20,787 bases of DNA. Origin: a virus. The notes under the pieces are model-generated. The model saw nothing but the letters and a program-made list of their open reading frames with translations. It was not told the DNA's origin and ran no database searches. The stretch is taken from positions 1 to 20,787 of the IMG/VR virus record IMGVR_UViG_3300035034_003141, one strand, 5' to 3'. The position numbers were made by a program, and so were the translations under genes. This document shows, one piece after another, positions 1 to 20,066 of the stretch (positions within the stretch are counted from its first letter, which is position 1; the number at the start of each line of letters is the position of its first letter).

Positions 1-2060
1 AGGTTATCAGCAACCAAATCCCCCTGCACCGTAGTAGTCCCCACCCCGTCATGCTGCAAACGAATCACCCCGCCACTGGCAAGGATCAAATTGTCGGTTA
101 AGTCAGGCGCAAGCCCGCTTACGTTTGCGCCGAATATACTATTGCCGGAGCCTGTCTCGATGCCTGTGCCAGTGTTCCTGCCGTTAGCGGTGTTGCTGTT
201 GCCTGTGGTGTTGTAGTAGAGTGCGTACGTGCCGTTGGCGGTGTTTTCGTTGCCCTCAGTGTTGTTGTGGAGTGCTCTCCTGCCGTTGGCGGTGTTTTCG
301 CTACCATCAGTGTTGTTGTAGAGTGCGTTCCTGCCGTTAGCGGTGTTTTCGCTGCCCTCAGTGTTGTTGTAGAGTGCGTCCGTGCCGTTGGCGGTGTTGT
401 CGTTGCCTGTGGTGTTGTTGTAGAGTGCGCTCATGCCGTAGGCGGTGTTTTCGCTGCCCTCAGTGTTGTTGTAGAGTGCGCTCCTGCCGTTGGCGGTGTT
501 GTCGTTGCCCTCAGTGTTGTTGTTGAGTGCGTCCGTGCCGTTGGCGGTGTTGTCGTTGCCTGTGGTGTTGTTCTGGAGTGCGCTCCTGCCGTAGGCGGTG
601 TTTTCGCTGCCCTCAGTGTTGTTCTGGAGTGCGGCCCTGCCGTTAGCGGTGTTGTCGTTGCCCTCAGTGTTGTTGTTGAGTGCGTCCGTGCCGTTGGCGG
701 TGTTGTTGTTGCCTGTGGTGTTGTTCTGGAGTACGTTTTCTCCATAACCACTATTAGTAGTATCCCCGCCCGCGCCACGATAATTAATCTCGCCAGTAAA
801 GATCTGGCCGGATATATTTGCTTTGTCGTCCAGCAGCCCGTCAACTTCCGTCTCGCTGTAGGTCGTGGCTTTGTCTGCTTTTTCATCAAGAAAAGACTTG
901 CCCGCCAGCACAAACGACAGGTCCGTGGTACCCAGGGTGATATCTGCGTCCGTAGCCAGCTGCCAGATCGAATTTGCGTTTTCGATGCCCTCGGATATCG
1001 GCACCAACATAGCCGGCGGCAACTTGACCGCTTCGTCTGCGTCTTCGGACCGGATCCAATCCGAGCTTGAGGCAATGTATATGCCGTTTACCGTCTGGGC
1101 GACCTGATTTTTTACAAGCACCCGGTCAGCCTCTGCTAGTAAAACGCCGTCCACAGTCTGCAAACCGGTAAGCGTGATCTCTGCATCAGTGGCCACGCGC
1201 ACCGGCTCCTTACTGGCCCGCTGCTGGTGGTCATCGACCACCTGTTTCAATGATGCGTATGCCCCTGAATCCACGGTCATGCTCAGGCTTGCATCCGCGG
1301 AAATAGTAGTGCGCATGATTAAATCGGTTTCAATCAGGGTTGCACCGCCTGCGGCCGGAAAATAATCGCCCTGTTCGCCCGCGTTGGTTATTGAGTACAG
1401 AATTTCTCCCAGATCCGGATCCTGAGCAAAAATTCCGAGCTCCGCCAGGTAATACCCGGTGGAAAGCCACTCGTTTGAAAGCACAGTGGAAATCTCTGTA
1501 ACCACGTCATCTACCCGCTCCACGGTATTGACGGCAAGCTCCTGGCGCTGGTCAATCAGGGCGTACAGATCAGACAGAGCTATCCGGAAATGGTCTATTG
1601 TCTCGGCCAGCTTCTGAGCCACTGCGGCTGCGCTGTCCAGCCCGTCAAGAGCCACATGGATGCCAACACGGGCTGCCAGGCCGGGATCGATTCCACTGCC
1701 ATCAATGGAAAACCACACATAAAAGTCAATATAAGGCGAGCTGATATGAAACCGCTCCCCGCCGGCCAGATCTCCTGCGGCCAGGCATTGGATTGCAGTC
1801 TCTGCTTTTGTGGTACTATCACCGACCACCTCCGTAGTAATGGTAAAACCGGTATCCACATCAGACGCGCCGGCTGCACCGTTTTCCGTCCGCGCCACGG
1901 CCACTGTGTCGTCACTTGCCGTAGCGGTAAAGGGCGCATTGTCCGGCGGCAACCGTCCGGCGCCGGTAGCGGCCATGGTAAAGCTCAGCGTGTCCCCGGC
2001 CTGTACTTTTGCCAACAGAGCCTCTCCTTTTGTAGTCAGCACAAATCCTGGAAACTTCAT
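1..2060 (-). CDS. H: Tail fibre protein, P2 gpH-like, 3' end outside window
   Basis: The frame is open from the ATG at 2060 to the left edge (686 codons, no stop). The start has the ribosome site AAAGGAG six bases upstream. It would form the distal receptor-binding fibre on the baseplate. Seen in order: residues 1-45 resemble the N-terminal tail-collar domain of gpH-like fibres; about 68-158 is an inserted module with the signature WFSIDGSGIDPG; about 160-280 resembles the second half of the collar domain (GYYLAELGIF, then LKQVVDDH); about 286-388 is a module common in phage fibres (RVATDAEITL...NGIYIA...DWIRSEDAD); about 396-417 has a YSETEVDGLLDDKA motif; 443-629 is eleven 17-residue repeats; from 630 there is a GANVSGL...NLILASGG stretch often seen ahead of a C-terminal chaperone. 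I infer an S74-type intramolecular chaperone off-window. Gene I ends 15 bases upstream, matching the P2 I-H order. Confidence 0.88.
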   Translation of the reverse strand, partial: MKFPGFVLTTKGEALLAKVQAGDTLSFTMAATGAGRLPPDNAPFTATASDDTVAVARTENGAAGASDVDTGFTITTEVVGDSTTKAETAIQCLAAGDLAGGERFHISSPYIDFYVWFSIDGSGIDPGLAARVGIHVALDGLDSAAAVAQKLAETIDHFRIALSDLYALIDQRQELAVNTVERVDDVVTEISTVLSNEWLSTGYYLAELGIFAQDPDLGEILYSITNAGEQGDYFPAAGGATLIETDLIMRTTISADASLSMTVDSGAYASLKQVVDDHQQRASKEPVRVATDAEITLTGLQTVDGVLLAEADRVLVKNQVAQTVNGIYIASSSDWIRSEDADEAVKLPPAMLVPISEGIENANSIWQLATDADITLGTTDLSFVLAGKSFLDEKADKATTYSETEVDGLLDDKANISGQIFTGEINYRGAGGDTTNSGYGENVLQNNTTGNNNTANGTDALNNNTEGNDNTANGRAALQNNTEGSENTAYGRSALQNNTTGNDNTANGTDALNNNTEGNDNTANGRSALYNNTEGSENTAYGMSALYNNTTGNDNTANGTDALYNNTEGSENTANGRNALYNNTDGSENTANGRRALHNNTEGNENTANGTYALYYNTTGNSNTANGRNTGTGIETGSGNSIFGANVSGLAPDLTDNLILASGGVIRLQHDGVGTTTVQGDLVADN
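174..734 (-). repeat. Eleven tandem 51-bp repeats inside the tail fibre gene
   Basis: Eleven in-frame units of 51 bp encode 17-residue repeats of the form AL-x-NNT(T/E/D)G-xxNTA(N/Y)G-xx. Units alternate in a period of three: a TTG type, an EG-ND type and an EG-SE type. Units 1-3 and 4-6 (counted from the N-terminal side) therefore form a 153-bp higher-order repeat, and unit 7 restarts it. Units 4 and 7 differ at one codon. Such NTTG-type repeats are known from trimeric phage fibres and adhesins, where they are thought to form stacked beta-rolls. Confidence 0.95.
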
Positions 2061-5214: not shown

Positions 5215-6214
5215 TTTCCGCCCTCTGCACGTCTATCCGGGTAGTATAACCGCCGGAAATTCCATGGACCGCCTTGGTGATCAAATATTTGTCGGAAAAA
5301 GCCCCAAAGCCTTCCAGCATCACATTCACGCCGGCCACCAACCCCGGTTTACCGGAAAGGGATACGGATCCGGCCACCTCTCGTTTGTTTTTTTGATACA
5401 GCAGGTTTTTTGCGCGCTGCTTGGCCTGTGTGTAGGAATGCACCCGGCGGTTGTCCACCAGCACCTGGCCGGAAGAGATATTTTTTGCTTCATGGGTGTA
5501 TTCAAAGGTTTTTTTAACGATTGCATCATAATATTTCACCCGGCAAGCTCGATATATGTCATGAGCCTGGGCCCGAAAGTTGCAGTCAATGATCCCACTG
5601 TTTTTTTGTATGGTCGAAACAGCAGCTTTTTTGCCGTATTCCGCCTCGTCAAAGATTACCAGGCGGCTATCTGTCACCTTTACTGCCAGGCCCGCATCTT
5701 CGCAGAGCCGCTGGAGAAAGGCCAGGTCGCTTTCTCCCCGCTGATCTATCCGGTCATAATCCACGTTTATGCCCACATCAAAAAACATCTGCAGACCGGC
5801 ATTGCCCGCCAACTCGGCGGCAATGCCGAAAAGGGAGGTGGATTCCCACGCCTGGTTTTTTTTCTCCCTTCGGAGGCTGCCGTCCACAGGCGTAGATACG
5901 GCCTGAATTTTCAATGCCTGCGGCGGAAAGGAAAAATCCAGCTCATCTACGGAAAATTCGCCGCAGAAAAGCCGTGCCTGGTCGCCGGTAGCATCCCAGT
6001 GCCGGGTAATAATCGCCGCTTTAATCCGGTCGGATTTTTGCGGAAACCAGTCCGAAAGCCATTTGCCAGACCTGTCATTTAAGGCCACGGAAACTTCATC
6101 CACCTTGCCGTGAATATTATCTGTATAAGAAAACCCCTCCATGAACGGAGCCACGTCCTCGGATATATCCACGCCCTCATATATCAGCTCCACCTGTGTG
6201 CGCCGTGCAGTCAT
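5207..6214 (-). CDS. D: Tail hub protein D (late control D family)
   Basis: Encodes 335 residues starting MTARRTQVELIYEGVDISED. The late control gene D / gp27-like hub family is recognisable from VDEVSVALNDRSGKWL, the central ESTSLFGIAAELAGNAGL, DRIDQRGESDLAFLQRLCEDAGL (the usual Q-x-x-E-S-D-x-x-F-L motif) and a C-terminal GFGAFSDKYLITKAVH. The protein would form the trimeric hub linking tail tube to spike V, which follows directly and overlaps by 8 nt. The ribosome site AGGGG lies seven bases before the ATG. Despite the family name it is a structural protein. Confidence 0.92.
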   Translation of the reverse strand: MTARRTQVELIYEGVDISEDVAPFMEGFSYTDNIHGKVDEVSVALNDRSGKWLSDWFPQKSDRIKAAIITRHWDATGDQARLFCGEFSVDELDFSFPPQALKIQAVSTPVDGSLRREKKNQAWESTSLFGIAAELAGNAGLQMFFDVGINVDYDRIDQRGESDLAFLQRLCEDAGLAVKVTDSRLVIFDEAEYGKKAAVSTIQKNSGIIDCNFRAQAHDIYRACRVKYYDAIVKKTFEYTHEAKNISSGQVLVDNRRVHSYTQAKQRAKNLLYQKNKREVAGSVSLSGKPGLVAGVNVMLEGFGAFSDKYLITKAVHGISGGYTTRIDVQRAEND

Positions 6215-6217
6215 GGT

Positions 6218-6424
6218 TTATCCCCTTTTCCAGGGCGGCAGAGTTTCAGGCATGGATTCGTCGATTTTCGGCACAACCAGCCGAGCCCCGGCGGCAAAAA
6301 ACACAATTTCCCGGTGTGCTGTATTTGCGGTAATCAGCCGATCCATGTATTTTTCCGCGCCGTAAACTTTCTTGGAAACAATATCCCAAGTATCGCCCTG
6401 AATGGTCACGTAATCATCAGGCAA
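6218..6424 (-). CDS. X: Tail protein X, LysM-like, TTG start
   Basis: I place the start at TTG 6424, preceded by GAAAGGAGG with seven bases between GGAGG and TTG. This gives 68 residues, close to the 67 of P2 gpX. The sequence contains VTIQGDTWDIVSKKVYG, then LITANTAHREIVFFAAGARLVVPKI, a compact LysM-like tail protein X pattern. The start overlaps the stop of the tape measure gene by 8 nt (TTGCCTGA). An ATG-started version reaching 6532 lies inside the tape measure frame and adds non-family sequence. The product probably joins tape measure, hub and tube. Confidence 0.85.
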   Translation of the reverse strand: MPDDYVTIQGDTWDIVSKKVYGAEKYMDRLITANTAHREIVFFAAGARLVVPKIDESMPETLPPWKRG

Positions 6425-8723
6425 AAGACAACCTCCTTTCGCGCCGGAATACAGCCCGCATACGATCAGCCAGATAGTCCGACCCGGCACGGATGCCTTG
6501 TTCCGCCTGCTGCCGTACGTCTCCGTCACCATTTACATAAATGGTGGGATTATAGTTGATTTCCACGGACGGCCGTTGACGACCGGATGTCGGTCCACTC
6601 CGGGCGGAAACCGTTCCAGACGGGGTATTCGCACCGGAAAGAGCCTGATCCATGGCCCCGGATACCGGCCGAGGGCCGGACCGGCGGATACCCGCACCGA
6701 TGGTGTGAGGAATGGACTTTCCGGACGCGATCAGATCAGAAAGCGGACCGGTTTTGGCATCGGAAAATGGAAGAAGTTCCCGGACTTTTTTAAACACGCC
6801 CTTTACGGCTTCAACCGGCTTCATGGCCAAAGCCTTCAGGCCTGAAACCAGAGAGCCGATGATGTTTTTGCCGATTTCAAAGAGGTTAATAGAGCTCAAC
6901 CAGTCCCACAGGTCGGTGAAAAAAACCTTGACCGTCTCCCATTTTTTTACCAGGAAATAGGCAGCTGTGCCAAGAAGGGCTACACCGGCAATCACTAGGC
7001 CAATAGGGCTGGCCCACATGGCCGCATTGAGTAGCCACTGAGCCGCGGTCCAGGCCTTAGTGGCACCAGCCACGATCCACTGCCAGGCCGCCAGGCCCAC
7101 GGCAACAGCCTTTTGCTTAATCAGGGAGGCATTTAACGCCAGCACTGAGGGGCGGAAAAAATCAAATGTTGCCTTGCCAAACTGCACTGCATCCGATACC
7201 AGGGACATGCCGTAGCGCCCGGCAAGCGATGCCACCTTAAAACTCACCAGGGCAGCGGCTGCGCCGAATACCACTTTGGTCAAAAACGGGTGCTCATCCG
7301 CCAGATCCGCCACGACACCGGCGGTTTTGCCCGCAACGCCCATAACCGCATTAAGCGGCGGCAACAGGGCGAAACCCAGGGTAATGCCTAGCTTGGAAAC
7401 TCGATTTTGGAAAATCTGCATCTGGTTTTCCGTGGTCTTGGCCCGCTCGGCGTATTCTTTTTGCATAGATCCGGCATACTTAGTTTTATCCGAAACCATA
7501 GCAAAAGCCTGATCCAGATTTTCCAGGTTAGTAAGCAGCGGCGAAATCACGTCCTTACCTTCTTCGCCGAAAACCTCCTTTAGCATTCCGGGCCGGGCGG
7601 CCTCGGGAAGCTCTTTTAGTGCCTGGAAAACAGATCGGATCGCGCCCTGTGCGTCAACTTGCATGCGCTCTGCCATGCCCTTGGCGGAAAAGCCCAGGGC
7701 CTGCAAAGAATTTTTAATCCGGTTCGGAGCCTGCTCACCGGCGGTCAGGGTACTGAGCAGCTTTTTCATAGCCGTGGCGCTGCGTTCCGCCCCCTGGTTG
7801 GAAGTCAGCAGCGTGGCGCCCAGTGCGGCCACTTCTTGTTTCATCAAACCCGCTGTCTGGGCCGAGGCCCCCTGCCGATTGATCACCCGGGTTAGTTCTC
7901 CGGCCTCCGCATTCATGCTGTTGGAAAGATGGTTGACTGCATCGGCCAGCTCAATCGTCTCGTCTTGTGACAGCCGCATGGCCGCGCGCCATCCAGCCAT
8001 GGTTTTGCCCGCCACCCGGCCGGTCATGTCAAAGGCCGTACCCATTTTGACCGCTGTTTCGGCAAACGCGGTTAGTTCATCCCTGGCAATACCGGCTTGA
8101 CCAGCAGAGGCCATGATGTCCCCGATCCCGGATGCGGCCATGGGAAGCCGGGTGGAAAGATTGAGCACGCCTCGGGAAAGCGCCTTGAATTGCTGCGGGG
8201 TCTCGAAATCCATGACCTTTTTGACATCGGCCATCTTAGATTCGAACTCCATAGCCTGCTTAATCGGAAAGGCTACGGTCGCACCGGCTGCGGCCACGCC
8301 CATAAACTGGCCATGGATCTGCTGGCGGGTATCGCGATTTTGCTGCATTTTCTGCATGCGGCCCATGCGACGCTCTGCCTGGCCCATGGCCGTATCCAGG
8401 CGCTTATACTGCCGGGCGGCTCCGCCGATTTCAACCCCGTGTTTTTGCGCCGCGCGCGCGGCTTCCCGAAACTTATGCTGGGTTTCGGCAATCTTGGCAT
8501 TCAGGTCCCGGTTGGCGTAGCCCGCCTTTTCCTGGCGGCGGCGAAGGTCTTTTAACTCCTGGGAGTATTTGGCCACCTCGCCGGCATGGAACTTCTGCTT
8601 TTCCATGCCCCGCATGGTGGCGCCCAATTTCTGCATATGGTCCTGTGCAGAGCCCAGAGACCGTTTAAAGCTCGAGCCCAGGGCCGCGCCAATATTAAAT
8701 TCAACAGAATACGTACGGGCCAT
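6417..8723 (-). CDS. T: Tail tape measure protein (P2 gpT-like)
   Basis: Encodes 768 residues starting MARTYSVEFNIGAALGSSFK. Residues 1-135 are Arg/Lys/Gln-rich helix, probably coiled coil. About 155-460 match the TP901-type tape measure core (FESKMADVKKVMDF, GIGDIMASAGQAGI, NQGAERSATAMKKLL, KVFGEEG-like). Hydrophobic segments lie near 480-503 and 573-592, and the C-terminus is Ser/Gly/Pro-rich and basic (RRERRLSFA). It sets tail length and is expected to enter the host membrane at infection. The ATG overlaps the E+E' stop by one base (TAATG), which supports E' being translated. Confidence 0.93.
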   Translation of the reverse strand: MARTYSVEFNIGAALGSSFKRSLGSAQDHMQKLGATMRGMEKQKFHAGEVAKYSQELKDLRRRQEKAGYANRDLNAKIAETQHKFREAARAAQKHGVEIGGAARQYKRLDTAMGQAERRMGRMQKMQQNRDTRQQIHGQFMGVAAAGATVAFPIKQAMEFESKMADVKKVMDFETPQQFKALSRGVLNLSTRLPMAASGIGDIMASAGQAGIARDELTAFAETAVKMGTAFDMTGRVAGKTMAGWRAAMRLSQDETIELADAVNHLSNSMNAEAGELTRVINRQGASAQTAGLMKQEVAALGATLLTSNQGAERSATAMKKLLSTLTAGEQAPNRIKNSLQALGFSAKGMAERMQVDAQGAIRSVFQALKELPEAARPGMLKEVFGEEGKDVISPLLTNLENLDQAFAMVSDKTKYAGSMQKEYAERAKTTENQMQIFQNRVSKLGITLGFALLPPLNAVMGVAGKTAGVVADLADEHPFLTKVVFGAAAALVSFKVASLAGRYGMSLVSDAVQFGKATFDFFRPSVLALNASLIKQKAVAVGLAAWQWIVAGATKAWTAAQWLLNAAMWASPIGLVIAGVALLGTAAYFLVKKWETVKVFFTDLWDWLSSINLFEIGKNIIGSLVSGLKALAMKPVEAVKGVFKKVRELLPFSDAKTGPLSDLIASGKSIPHTIGAGIRRSGPRPVSGAMDQALSGANTPSGTVSARSGPTSGRQRPSVEINYNPTIYVNGDGDVRQQAEQGIRAGSDYLADRMRAVFRRERRLSFA

Positions 8724-13884: not shown

Positions 13885-15474
13885 TCACGATTCTCCGGGG
13901 TTTTTGTAAAAGCTCCGGTATTCCATGACCCCGGCGCCGAAATCATGGCGCACCTTGTAGCCGATGGCGTCACGCTCAAACAGCTCATTTTCATCGAGAT
14001 AAGGCTGCTCGTTTCCGTCCAGATAGGCCACCTCTATGGTGTCCACCATGGCCGGATCAGCGATTAGATACCAGGCCTTGGCTGAGATTGCATCCAGCCT
14101 GGGCTCGGAAATCGGAGTCAGCCGGTTGGCCCATGGGTTGTACACGCCGGAGGACATCTCCGTGCTGGGCAGAGCAGTGGAGCGCAGCAGGACTTCGGCA
14201 TCGGTCTCCTGATCCGTGGGAGTCAGCAGAAAAGCAGGCTGCAAATCAAGGTAAGATCCATTCAAACCTTTTTGTTTGCGCACGGCCGACCGGGCCGCAG
14301 ATAGCCCGGCGGTCGTGACCGGGCCAATGGTCGTTGCCTCCAGATTTTCGTGGTCCGCATGGAACAGGGTTTTTCCTGTCTCATTCATGGTGGGATTCTG
14401 CAAAAGCAGCTCGGTGTAGATGATGTCCGCTTCCATGCGCCGGGCCGCGGCCCCAAAAAGCTGCGGTATTCGCATGAAAGCCCGCAAGTCGTCGTTAATG
14501 ATCATCTTACGGGTCAGGTACACGATCTTTCCGCGAGATTCCACCCGATAGGATTCCTGCTTATCCTTGAAAGCTCCGGATTTGTATTCCCCGTTTTCGT
14601 TCAGCAGCTCCAGGGTCGGGGCCTCGGACAGAGCAATGCCATACATGTCCTTGAAATCCGTGGCGGTCACCACGTTGACCCAGGGCCGCCAGGTTGCAGG
14701 GGCTTCTTGATAAGTGCGCAGCAGACGCTTTCCGGCCGCATCCATGAAAATGGAGGGAAAATCGCTTGTGGACAGCGAAGACCGCTGGGAAAGCAGCATG
14801 TCCGCGATCTGCCGCCGGGAATGTATGCCCTGGGTGGAAATCCCGGCACGCTCCAAACAAACCTTTCCAATGTCGGCAATGGACATGCCCCGAAACTCTT
14901 CATACCCCGCTGCCGGCTGTTGCTCCCGGGCCCCGCTGCGATGCGTAATGCCGGACACCACTGCGGCCCGGAACTTGTCTGCCTCGTGAGCGCCTTCATA
15001 CAGTCGGCCCGGGCCCACTGGCGAATTTTGAGTTTTCATTTTCTCGAAAATCGCCGCCCGGGCCTGATCGATATTAATATCCTGACGGATCATGGCGTCT
15101 GCCTCGGAAGCATCCAGGCCGGCCAGACGAACGGCCTCCTGGATGCCGTCAATGCGGTCACGTTCCGCGCACACAGCTTCCTGTGCCGCACGCCGGGCGG
15201 AAGCGTCCATGTCCTGCCGGGAATACTGGTTCTGTCCGCCGCCAGAAGGGTTCTGCGGGGCATTTTTCTGGGCGGCGACCGGGTTAGAAGAAGCGCCGAT
15301 GGAAGGCGCCTGATTGACGGCTGCTTCGGCTTTGAGCTGATCCAGTTCACTTCGGGCGCTCACCTCCAGGTCCTGTCGGGCTTCAAACTCCATCAGGAAC
15401 TGTCGGGCCTGCTCATCAGTGGCATCCACCGGCAGGCCCATGCGCACCAGAAACTTTCTTAATTTTTTGTTCAT
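13885..15474 (-). CDS. Nested in-frame scaffold-capsid product (internal start)
   Basis: Inside the protease-capsid frame, the ATG for residue 210 (MNKKLRKFLVRMGLPVDATD) is preceded by GAGGAGG, eight bases from GGAGG to ATG. It would give a 529-residue protein lacking the protease and starting at the domain boundary. This parallels lambda, where Nu3 scaffold starts inside protease gene C. It would explain how most capsid subunits are made without the protease. The motif encodes Glu-Glu-Asp, so chance cannot be excluded. Confidence 0.55.
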   Translation of the reverse strand: MNKKLRKFLVRMGLPVDATDEQARQFLMEFEARQDLEVSARSELDQLKAEAAVNQAPSIGASSNPVAAQKNAPQNPSGGGQNQYSRQDMDASARRAAQEAVCAERDRIDGIQEAVRLAGLDASEADAMIRQDINIDQARAAIFEKMKTQNSPVGPGRLYEGAHEADKFRAAVVSGITHRSGAREQQPAAGYEEFRGMSIADIGKVCLERAGISTQGIHSRRQIADMLLSQRSSLSTSDFPSIFMDAAGKRLLRTYQEAPATWRPWVNVVTATDFKDMYGIALSEAPTLELLNENGEYKSGAFKDKQESYRVESRGKIVYLTRKMIINDDLRAFMRIPQLFGAAARRMEADIIYTELLLQNPTMNETGKTLFHADHENLEATTIGPVTTAGLSAARSAVRKQKGLNGSYLDLQPAFLLTPTDQETDAEVLLRSTALPSTEMSSGVYNPWANRLTPISEPRLDAISAKAWYLIADPAMVDTIEVAYLDGNEQPYLDENELFERDAIGYKVRHDFGAGVMEYRSFYKNPGES

Positions 15475-16101
15475 GGCCTTGTCCTCCTCTAGTTTGTGTT
15501 CGGTCCGTACCTTGGCCAAGGTGTCGGCTCCGATGGCTGTAAGAGAGGTCTCTTTTATCTCCCACTTGGTTGCAATCCGCACGGGTCCTTCATATGTGTC
15601 CCCGCCGATGGTTTTTTGCTCGCCTTTCCGGAGCACTTCCTTTTCCAGCACCTTATATCCAACGGATACATCCGTAACATGCCCCTCCAATACCAGGCGG
15701 GCAGCATCCCGCGCGCGATCCGTGGTGGCAAACCAGACCTGGGCCTCTACGGCCCTGTATCCGCTGACCTCTGTCATTTGAAAATCCCGGGCCGAGCCCA
15801 GCACGTCCGAGACCTCAAACCGGGAATGATCGTCTAAAAGAGGCACCTGACCGATATCGGGCGCCATCATGCCGGCCATGCATAGGACTTCATCAATAAT
15901 GTCCATCTGATCAAAGTCAAAAACCTGTGTGGGCCGCTCTGTGGCTACAACAAAGCGCACGGTATCGTTTTGCGAATCATAGGTTTCCGGTCGAACCGCG
16001 CTGGTGGCTGTGCGCACGGCACTAATCCGGCTGGAGTCGCTGCGCAGGGATAGGGAGTTGAGGGGTAGGAAGTTGTATGTTTTCAAAATCCTGTATGTCA
16101 T
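13885..16101 (-). CDS. Prohead protease / scaffold / major capsid fusion
   Basis: Encodes 738 residues. About 40-195 is an HK97-type (S78) prohead protease: LLDDHSRFEVSDVLGSARDF with His92, VSVGYKV with Ser146, and KWEIKETSLTAIGAD, matching the usual (E)xSLVxxPA-type motif. About 205-360 is a low-complexity Gln/Glu/Lys linker that probably acts as scaffold. About 440-738 is the major capsid protein (SDFPSIFMDAAGKRLLRTYQEAPATW, DLRAFMRIPQLFG, ARRMEADIIYTELL, and a C-terminal DEEL-type strand ending GAGVMEYRSFYKNPG). The start overlaps the portal stop as ATGA. Fusions of protease and capsid are known in Mu-like and related phages. Confidence 0.88.
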   Translation of the reverse strand: MTYRILKTYNFLPLNSLSLRSDSSRISAVRTATSAVRPETYDSQNDTVRFVVATERPTQVFDFDQMDIIDEVLCMAGMMAPDIGQVPLLDDHSRFEVSDVLGSARDFQMTEVSGYRAVEAQVWFATTDRARDAARLVLEGHVTDVSVGYKVLEKEVLRKGEQKTIGGDTYEGPVRIATKWEIKETSLTAIGADTLAKVRTEHKLEEDKAMNKKLRKFLVRMGLPVDATDEQARQFLMEFEARQDLEVSARSELDQLKAEAAVNQAPSIGASSNPVAAQKNAPQNPSGGGQNQYSRQDMDASARRAAQEAVCAERDRIDGIQEAVRLAGLDASEADAMIRQDINIDQARAAIFEKMKTQNSPVGPGRLYEGAHEADKFRAAVVSGITHRSGAREQQPAAGYEEFRGMSIADIGKVCLERAGISTQGIHSRRQIADMLLSQRSSLSTSDFPSIFMDAAGKRLLRTYQEAPATWRPWVNVVTATDFKDMYGIALSEAPTLELLNENGEYKSGAFKDKQESYRVESRGKIVYLTRKMIINDDLRAFMRIPQLFGAAARRMEADIIYTELLLQNPTMNETGKTLFHADHENLEATTIGPVTTAGLSAARSAVRKQKGLNGSYLDLQPAFLLTPTDQETDAEVLLRSTALPSTEMSSGVYNPWANRLTPISEPRLDAISAKAWYLIADPAMVDTIEVAYLDGNEQPYLDENELFERDAIGYKVRHDFGAGVMEYRSFYKNPGES
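15483..15487 (-). promoter_or_regulatory. Ribosome site for the internal capsid start
   Basis: Minus-strand GGAGG (inside GAGGAGG) lies eight bases before ATG 15474, optimal spacing and one of the strongest such sites in the window. It lies in the codons for Leu-Glu-Glu-Asp at residues 204-207, the hinge between protease and scaffold. Confidence 0.55.
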
Positions 16102-17919: not shown

Positions 17920-18180
17920 TCAGAGATCAGGTGGGGGTAGTTGACCCAGGCTTTCCACTGATTTAATGGTTTTGCCGATCTGGTTGAGATAACATCTCGG
18001 GTTGTCGCACTTGTGATACCGTATCCGGGTGTAGCCGTCCCAAGGCCGGGTGGTATAAACCGACACTTTTTTTTTGCCGCAAAACGGACAGTACGCGCCG
18101 GTGGTCGGGTAATAGTCCACGCCGCATTCCGCGGCCTGGATAGCTGTGGCCAGGAATTTTACCATGTCTTGTTCGCTCAT
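17920..18180 (-). CDS. ogr: Ogr/Delta-like zinc-finger late-gene activator
   Basis: Encodes 86 residues from MSEQDMVKFLATAIQ. The ORF is open upstream but the ATG at 18180 overlaps the terminase stop as ATGA, so I take that start. Four cysteines (31, 34, 58, 63) form C-x2-C-x23-C-x4-C, and RIRYHKCDNPRC matches RYHQCQNVNC of P2 Ogr (C-x2-C-x22-C-x4-C). Ogr/Delta proteins are zinc-binding activators that contact host RNA polymerase at P2 late promoters. Differences: a 30-residue N-terminal extension and position between terminase and joiner, whereas P2 ogr follows D. A packaging-associated zinc protein is the alternative. Confidence 0.72.
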   Translation of the reverse strand: MSEQDMVKFLATAIQAAECGVDYYPTTGAYCPFCGKKKVSVYTTRPWDGYTRIRYHKCDNPRCYLNQIGKTIKSVESLGQLPPPDL

Positions 18181-20066
18181 CTTTGCCCCGCAAAAGGATT
18201 TTGACCATTGGTATAAGGATTGACTTTTTTCTTCTTTTTTGCCGGAACACTGGATTTGGATTTGATCTGCAGAGCCATGGTCTGCAAACTTGGCGACCAC
18301 TGCCAGTGTGTCATGGCCAGATGCCCCACCGCACAATCTAACCAGTGATTATCGGCTCGAACCTTTTTCCAGACCTCCTTGCCCTTCTTAACCACCTTTC
18401 TTTCCGCCAAGATCTGCTTAAAATATTGGCGGGATATCTCTCCGTGGAACAAGATTGGCTCGGTGGACTCATCCGAAAGACGCCAAAACAATTCATCCTT
18501 AAATGCGCCTGTATCTATAAAATACAGTTTTAGCCCATATTTCATAGCCCGGCCGTCCGGAAACTTCTGCCGAGGCTTAAACTTGACGTGCACGCCCGGC
18601 TCTTTTCGGCTCTTTCCTTTTGTGCCAAACACCACACCAGGGGGTTGGCGCAACAGCCATTGATAAACCTGTTGGGTGCGGGTCATCTCCCATCTAAAGC
18701 CTTCGCCGCCACCGGTGTCCACGGCGGCGCGCCAGATGGAAACCATATCATCATCCGTACCGTCTCGCCGGAACCTGGATTTAAAAATCATTTCTTCCAG
18801 CTCTGCGAAATTTCCGACAATGCCGGCATCAATAACCCAGTCTTTGCGCGGATCCATTGCATGGGCCCAGATCGAGTAATAAAAATAGTCCTTTTGGGTA
18901 TCCGCCGAAAATGTCAACGCAATGGCATCCTTCGGCACAACCTGCGGAGACAGGTCCGGCACAATCAAATTTTTGAGCTGCTCCTCAGTCTGCTCGGTTA
19001 CCACGGTCTGGCCGGGCACGGCCTTGTGATTATTATCAAACCTTTGCAGAGCGGACGGGCCGGCGGCATGGGCACGGAAATAATCGGCCATGACCTTAGA
19101 AAGGGATACAAACGGCGAGTTCCAGCTTGGAATATGGAACCCAACAACAGACGGGCGGTTGTATTTTTTGGACGTAAAGCAGCCGCCGGCTGCGATCGCA
19201 TTGTCTCTAACCTTATCGTTCCACTGCGAGCTGCACTGGATGCATTTATAATATCCCAGGCGCTCGCCAAGTATTTTTTTAGGGTTTCGCTCATCGTTTC
19301 GGACATGGATATTTTCCAGTTCCATTTTTTGAAGAGTGCCACACACCGGGCAGCGGGCATGCGGCTCTAGGATCACCTGAGACTCGGACTGCATATCCTG
19401 CCAAATCCGGGACTCCTCATCTATTCCCCGGGGTTTAGAAAACCGCAGAATCTTGGATGTATGCGCAAAAGCGATGGTACGTTCTTCCATGGACGTGATG
19501 CTGGCCGGCTTTTCGTAGGCGTCCTCCTCATCGATGAGTAAATACTGCAGAGAAACCGAGCTCATCCGGGACTCAGAACCGGCCCACAGCCCGTACACAC
19601 GGGAGCCGTCTTTTAAACGGACCTCCTGTTTTTGCATGGCCAGGTAAGAGTCCAACAACAGCCGGCGCAAGGCCGGAGATGTCTTAAAATGAGGTATTAA
19701 TTTTTCATCAAAAATTCGGTTGACAGCCGCCTCATCCGGCATGCCGACCCCTGCCGGGCCGGGCCGGCGGCACAGGGCTGCCGCTATGCAAGCATAAGCA
19801 ATAGTGGTTTTTCCGGTCTGGGACGGGGCGCAGATAAAGAGCTTTCGCACATACGGCCGGTCAAACCACTCCATAATGTCGCTGGCATAAGGAATAACAG
19901 ATGGTGTCCAAAACTTGCCTTTTAATGGTCCGGTCACAATCCGAAAGTTTTGCTGGGCCCAGGTATATGTTGGCGTTTGCTCGCGCCGCCGGAAAAAAGT
20001 GCGTTCCGCCCGGAAAAACACCGGATCCGGTTTTCGGGTATATGTCAATGATCCTGCTGTTTCCAT
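18177..20066 (-). CDS. Terminase large subunit, lambda GpA type
   Basis: Encodes 629 residues. ATPase: Walker A CAPSQTGKTT at about 79-88, Walker B LLIDEED at 176-182. A CPVC...CIQC pair (239-242, 275-278) may bind zinc. Nuclease part: ALTFSADTQKD (Asp389), AVDTGGGEGF (Asp450) and DNHWLDCAVGH (572-582), as in GpA-type terminases. Length is close to lambda GpA (641). The C-terminus is Lys-rich (AKKKKKVNPY). It cuts concatemeric DNA and drives packaging into the portal. It overlaps the small subunit by 22 nt. Confidence 0.95.
   Translation of the reverse strand: METAGSLTYTRKPDPVFFRAERTFFRRREQTPTYTWAQQNFRIVTGPLKGKFWTPSVIPYASDIMEWFDRPYVRKLFICAPSQTGKTTIAYACIAAALCRRPGPAGVGMPDEAAVNRIFDEKLIPHFKTSPALRRLLLDSYLAMQKQEVRLKDGSRVYGLWAGSESRMSSVSLQYLLIDEEDAYEKPASITSMEERTIAFAHTSKILRFSKPRGIDEESRIWQDMQSESQVILEPHARCPVCGTLQKMELENIHVRNDERNPKKILGERLGYYKCIQCSSQWNDKVRDNAIAAGGCFTSKKYNRPSVVGFHIPSWNSPFVSLSKVMADYFRAHAAGPSALQRFDNNHKAVPGQTVVTEQTEEQLKNLIVPDLSPQVVPKDAIALTFSADTQKDYFYYSIWAHAMDPRKDWVIDAGIVGNFAELEEMIFKSRFRRDGTDDDMVSIWRAAVDTGGGEGFRWEMTRTQQVYQWLLRQPPGVVFGTKGKSRKEPGVHVKFKPRQKFPDGRAMKYGLKLYFIDTGAFKDELFWRLSDESTEPILFHGEISRQYFKQILAERKVVKKGKEVWKKVRADNHWLDCAVGHLAMTHWQWSPSLQTMALQIKSKSSVPAKKKKKVNPYTNGQNPFAGQR

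Follow-up and report, generated by a model that had tools for sequence, protein, structure and literature searches.

The fusion gene and its surroundings

The window, by which we mean the whole stretch of DNA analysed (20,787 nucleotides), is a 20.8-kb virus record from IMG/VR with a tailed-phage head cluster on its minus strand, comprising a terminase large subunit (gpA type), portal, fusion gene, cement protein, 3TM holin and tail genes. Its nearest relatives in bacterial genomes are from Desulfobulbaceae and another deltaproteobacterial MAG. The holin (PF11351; 12880-13320, minus strand) stands within the head cluster, directly after the capsid and cement genes, and one relative (L005) has holin-like and peptidase-like ORFs (6107-7161) in roughly the same place. 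A small ORF between the terminase and the head-tail joining gene (17920-18336, minus strand) is weakly similar, below threshold, to Ogr/Delta-like zinc fingers of the P2 late-gene activator type, and a tail-fibre-like protein (3-2060, minus strand), which is without a Pfam match, consists in its C-terminal half of a tandem repeat of ~22 residues (NNTxGNxNTANGxxALxNNT).

The fusion gene (13885..16101, minus strand) encodes a protease-scaffold-major capsid protein of 738 aa, which scores 557.1 bits against NF045541, the NCBI model for 'prohead protease/major capsid protein fusion', and so exceeds the curated cut-off of 525. Its start codon (16099..16101, minus strand) overlaps the end of the portal gene and has the Shine-Dalgarno (SD) sequence CGGAGG. 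Sequencing error as the source of the open frame was rejected; the frame is also open in relatives of 99% (L002) and 71% (L003) identity and in 129 diverged fusions.

An AF2 model of the protein, built from a 46-sequence alignment, has a beta-rich protease domain at residues ~40-199, a flexible hinge of low confidence at 202-207 and helices from 212. The protease domain (15505..15984, minus strand) is S78-like; it matches Peptidase S78 (PF04586) at 19.8 bits, below the gathering cut-off of 21; H92 (37/37) and S146 (36/37) are conserved in agreement with that family, and hence the protease is likely to be active. The helical region that follows (residues ~210-370; 14992..15474, minus strand; helices modelled at 212-358) we infer to be a delta-type scaffold. 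Residues ~387-738 (13888..14943, minus strand) form an HK97-fold major capsid domain, aligned to HK97-like shells by VIA-align with Z 13-15 and matched by PF25209 over residues 439-734 with 202 bits. For a ClpP-type member the structure prediction (pLDDT 45) was of insufficient quality.

At the joint of protease and scaffold the minus strand reads ...GAACACAAACTA GAGGAGG ACAAGGCC ATG AACAAAAAATTAAGA..., with the SD at 15483..15489 and a spacer of 8 nt before an in-frame ATG at 15472..15474, which is residue 210. An earlier note had described this arrangement, placed it between the protease and scaffold domains and derived a product of 529 residues if the ATG is used, all of which our analysis bears out as a reading of the sequence: the hinge at 202-207 precedes residue 210 and the helices begin at 212, so that the nested start sits on the domain joint, and the predicted nested scaffold-major capsid gene (13885..15474, minus strand) would encode 529 aa. 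SD strength was measured for every ATG on both strands of the window as the anti-SD duplex against the 16S tail. The nested start, at -12.0 kcal/mol, is the best among 692 ATGs; the gene's own upstream start has -9.5, and its remaining 21 internal in-frame ATGs reach -5.9 at best. The window has a single exact instance of GAGGAGG-N8-ATG, where dinucleotide shuffles predict 0.03 occurrences, and a chance origin of the pair was rejected on this ground. Neither start shows unusual local RNA folding (z 0.26 and 0.86). When codons of the window gene alone were exchanged for synonymous ones, the SD was not significant (p = 0.29), because the residues LEEDKA are SD-friendly. The weight for the nested start comes from relatives rather than from the window gene alone.

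Conservation of the internal SD and start codon

The first relatives to be compared (99, 71, 49 and 53% identical) each have GGAGG and ATG at the joint, while the residues preceding the nested Met vary between EEDKA, EENA, TEDV and GGNT; in one of them (L004) a ClpP protease lies ahead of the same scaffold start. Across the clade, SD and start codon are kept in all 23 members with a located homologous start, whether the protease is S78-like or ClpP-like, and GTG replaces ATG in L100. Every one of the 23 has a duplex of -8.4 or stronger, with a mean of -10.0; when these residues are recoded with synonymous codons sampled from each member's own gene, the mean is -6.1 (Stouffer p = 2e-6, Fisher p = 1.6e-4). 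The SD core occurs in all three codon phases, with differing linker residues. Two members, L116 and L123, were left out of the count, their homologous start not being clear; their junction ATGs have moderate duplexes of -5.9 and -6.1. The prediction that the pair would be kept in close relatives beyond codon need is thereby upheld at the level of DNA. In five relatives (L005, from residue 217 on, L041, L101, L102 and L120) a zinc-ribbon motif, CPxCGK...CxxCG, is found right at the nested start, for example MHKCPDCGKDFDGRHCTACG, where the MNKKLRKFL helix would otherwise be.

Conservation beyond codon need extends to a survey of 129 fused genes of <70% identity, in which the junction was defined as up to 80 codons before the scaffold/capsid anchor and the statistics are independent of the protease-class label. 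Strong SDs precede 72 of 257 junction ATGs (28%), compared to 41.1 +/- 4.7 in synonymous shuffles (maximum 53 in 200), and 49 of 1977 ATGs elsewhere in the same genes (2.5%), which is below the shuffled expectation of 78 +/- 7.5; the odds ratio of junction against elsewhere is 15 (p = 3e-40). By these counts, fused genes are purged of internal SDs elsewhere but enriched in them at the joint. A junction ATG with at least a moderate SD (-5.5) is present in 107 of the 129 genes and ~17% are without one. The idea that members without an SD belong to hosts that make no use of SDs finds only a slight tendency in its favour (Spearman 0.21, p = 0.04; group difference p = 0.14). Members with a ClpP protease have a conserved ETW motif able to mimic an SD. 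In four genes without a strong SD (L072, L076, L081 and L097) the junction Met is followed by KREQ and the upstream DNA is AT-rich; these perhaps use an SD-independent nested start.

The nested start also bears the codon signature of an N-terminus. Early codons that are rich in A and T are a usual mark of true N-termini, and the nested start is followed at codons +1 to +7 by an A/T excess of 0.317 per codon over synonymous expectation (p = 1e-10), which falls to zero at +8. Other junction starts with a strong SD have an excess of 0.105 (p = 3e-5), and at control ATGs (n = 1883) it is slightly negative.

Split relatives and competing explanations

In a sister clade of the window phage, comprising 13 non-redundant rows, protease and scaffold-capsid are two genes, and the protease gene stops shortly before the second start. 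The scaffold-capsid gene begins at the ATG homologous to the nested start (MNKKLRxFL; MNKKLRAFLEANGL, MNPKLRKFLEQNGL and MHPKLRAFLLANGL) and has its own SD, mostly of AAGGAG or AGGAG type. Both halves align over their length to the halves of the window protein with 42-45% identity. Dulem virus 34, a human faecal phage and Faecalibacterium phage Epona, all gut phages, are split likewise.

On a tree of 59 capsid domains, with protease class assigned by phmmer, the split state requires two changes (the window's sister clade and the gut phages), the ClpP label five and the S78 label seven. The class of protease is exchanged upstream of the joint and the scaffold-capsid part stays; since several changes of state are needed, the joint is a repeated point of exchange and of fission or fusion. 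Under midpoint rooting, split clades fall within fused lineages, but this root serves for drawing only and the direction between fused and split is therefore tentative.

Several explanations of the conserved pair compete with its use as a start. It could be the unused relic of two adjacent genes fused by loss of a stop codon, and such an origin is possible because in close relatives there are two genes, the second beginning at this start. That the pair is only a relic is, however, very improbable, given that 23/23 members with capsid domains separated by several tenths of a substitution per site keep the SD, to a degree that codon choice does not account for, and that internal SDs are purged elsewhere in fused genes; furthermore, split clades nest within fused ones under midpoint rooting, which suggests that the fused state is not recent. 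Alternatively, the protein itself may need an acidic or flexible linker (EE, ED, KE) and a Met, for instance as a protease cleavage site, leaving the SD incidental. Many linkers are indeed rich in E and K, and synonymous shuffles already supply SDs to 41 of the 257 junction ATGs; yet the SDs observed exceed this null and persist in different codon phases while the residues vary (GGNT, EDDD, KETK, TEDV, RGGST). A constraint on protein would also leave the AT-rich codons after the Met unexplained, and it is at this same Met that the gene of split relatives starts, so we give it scant credence.

A similar fragment could arise by proteolytic cleavage, with no initiation at the nested ATG. It is also conceivable, if unlikely, that the nested start is in use but chiefly serves a purpose other than setting protease dose, such as capsid yield or the supply of protease-free protein to a separate step of assembly. 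Yield as the driver fits the internal SD being stronger than the upstream one, both in the window (-12.0 against -9.5) and on average among genes whose nested SD is strong (-9.5 against -7.6); but to make more protease-free capsid is to lower the protease dose in one act, and the two readings overlap and are inseparable by sequence alone.

Two predicted products and known head genes

We consider it very likely that the fusion gene is two overlapping in-frame genes, giving a full-length protein of 738 aa and a protease-free product of 529 aa that co-assemble with few copies of the protease; the short scaffold-capsid protein, in particular, is very probably made from the nested start as well. 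One mRNA would be read from two in-frame starts, initiation at 16101 giving the protease-scaffold-capsid protein and initiation at 15474, with the stronger SD, giving scaffold-capsid without protease. That both products are made is inferred, as are, by analogy with lambda, HK97 and Mu, their ratio, co-assembly and cleavage. Long and short products would co-assemble via their common scaffold/capsid part, so that a minority of subunits would carry protease into the procapsid, and on maturation these copies would remove the scaffold by cleavage, and probably themselves too. The role that the earlier note proposed for the internal start, of setting the stoichiometry of protease to capsid in the manner of lambda C/Nu3, would be served in this way. 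More broadly, it is reasonably likely that most 'protease/major capsid fusion' genes, of either protease class, are two overlapping genes in which the internal scaffold-capsid start is what is conserved, preceded by an exchangeable protease cassette that has been replaced several times and separated at the joint at least twice. A nested start would explain how the protease module can be swapped for another or become a separate gene while the capsid is left undisturbed.

Among the closest known systems are the 'tripartite' genes of Gifsy-2, MD8 and ES18, which have the same protease-scaffold-capsid fusion and a homologous capsid domain (PF25209), but a protease of ClpP type where that of the window is S78-like; at their junctions, too, there is an ATG, its SD being moderate to strong. 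In MD8 the three domains are treated as one gene product and an internal start is unmentioned (PMC8508860). Such genes pose a puzzle, in that a protease on every capsid subunit means hundreds of proteases to be fitted into each shell, to which a conserved nested start would be a simple answer. If this is true, what is probably the main capsid precursor is missing from the annotations, proteomics and structural models of a widespread capsid family, lambdoid prophages of enterobacteria and Pseudomonas included. The papers we covered take the gene to make a single protein, and we did not find the internal start described in the literature on the protease-capsid fusion family, our coverage of which is partial, and an earlier description is possible.

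The predicted 529-aa product follows the logic of HK97 gp5, a scaffold domain joined to an HK97-fold capsid, and the split relatives resemble the HK97 layout; in HK97, however, gp4 (protease) and gp5 (scaffold-capsid) are separate, whereas those of the window overlap in frame. In Mu, gene I encodes a protease with a nested in-frame start for the scaffold, Z. In the window gene, too, the in-frame nested start falls where protease and scaffold meet, and the capsid domain weakly matches Mu gpT (PF10124), but gpT is encoded by a separate gene. In lambda, C is a protease-scaffold gene with the scaffold gene Nu3 nested in frame (Shaw and Murialdo 1980, as cited in PMC8508860). The hallmark of this type, an in-frame internal start with an SD at the protease-scaffold joint, is present in the window gene, and the predicted likeness extends to one gene with two in-frame starts, a long product with protease, a short one without, and a scaffold common to both. 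The sequence families differ, the window protease being S78-like, and the lambda capsid protein has a separate gene, whereas the short product predicted here includes the major capsid protein itself and not scaffold alone. The layout of C/Nu3 and Mu, with capsid in its own gene, is absent. Hence the window gene would be C/Nu3-like in its working but different in gene arrangement, because the capsid domain belongs to both predicted products.
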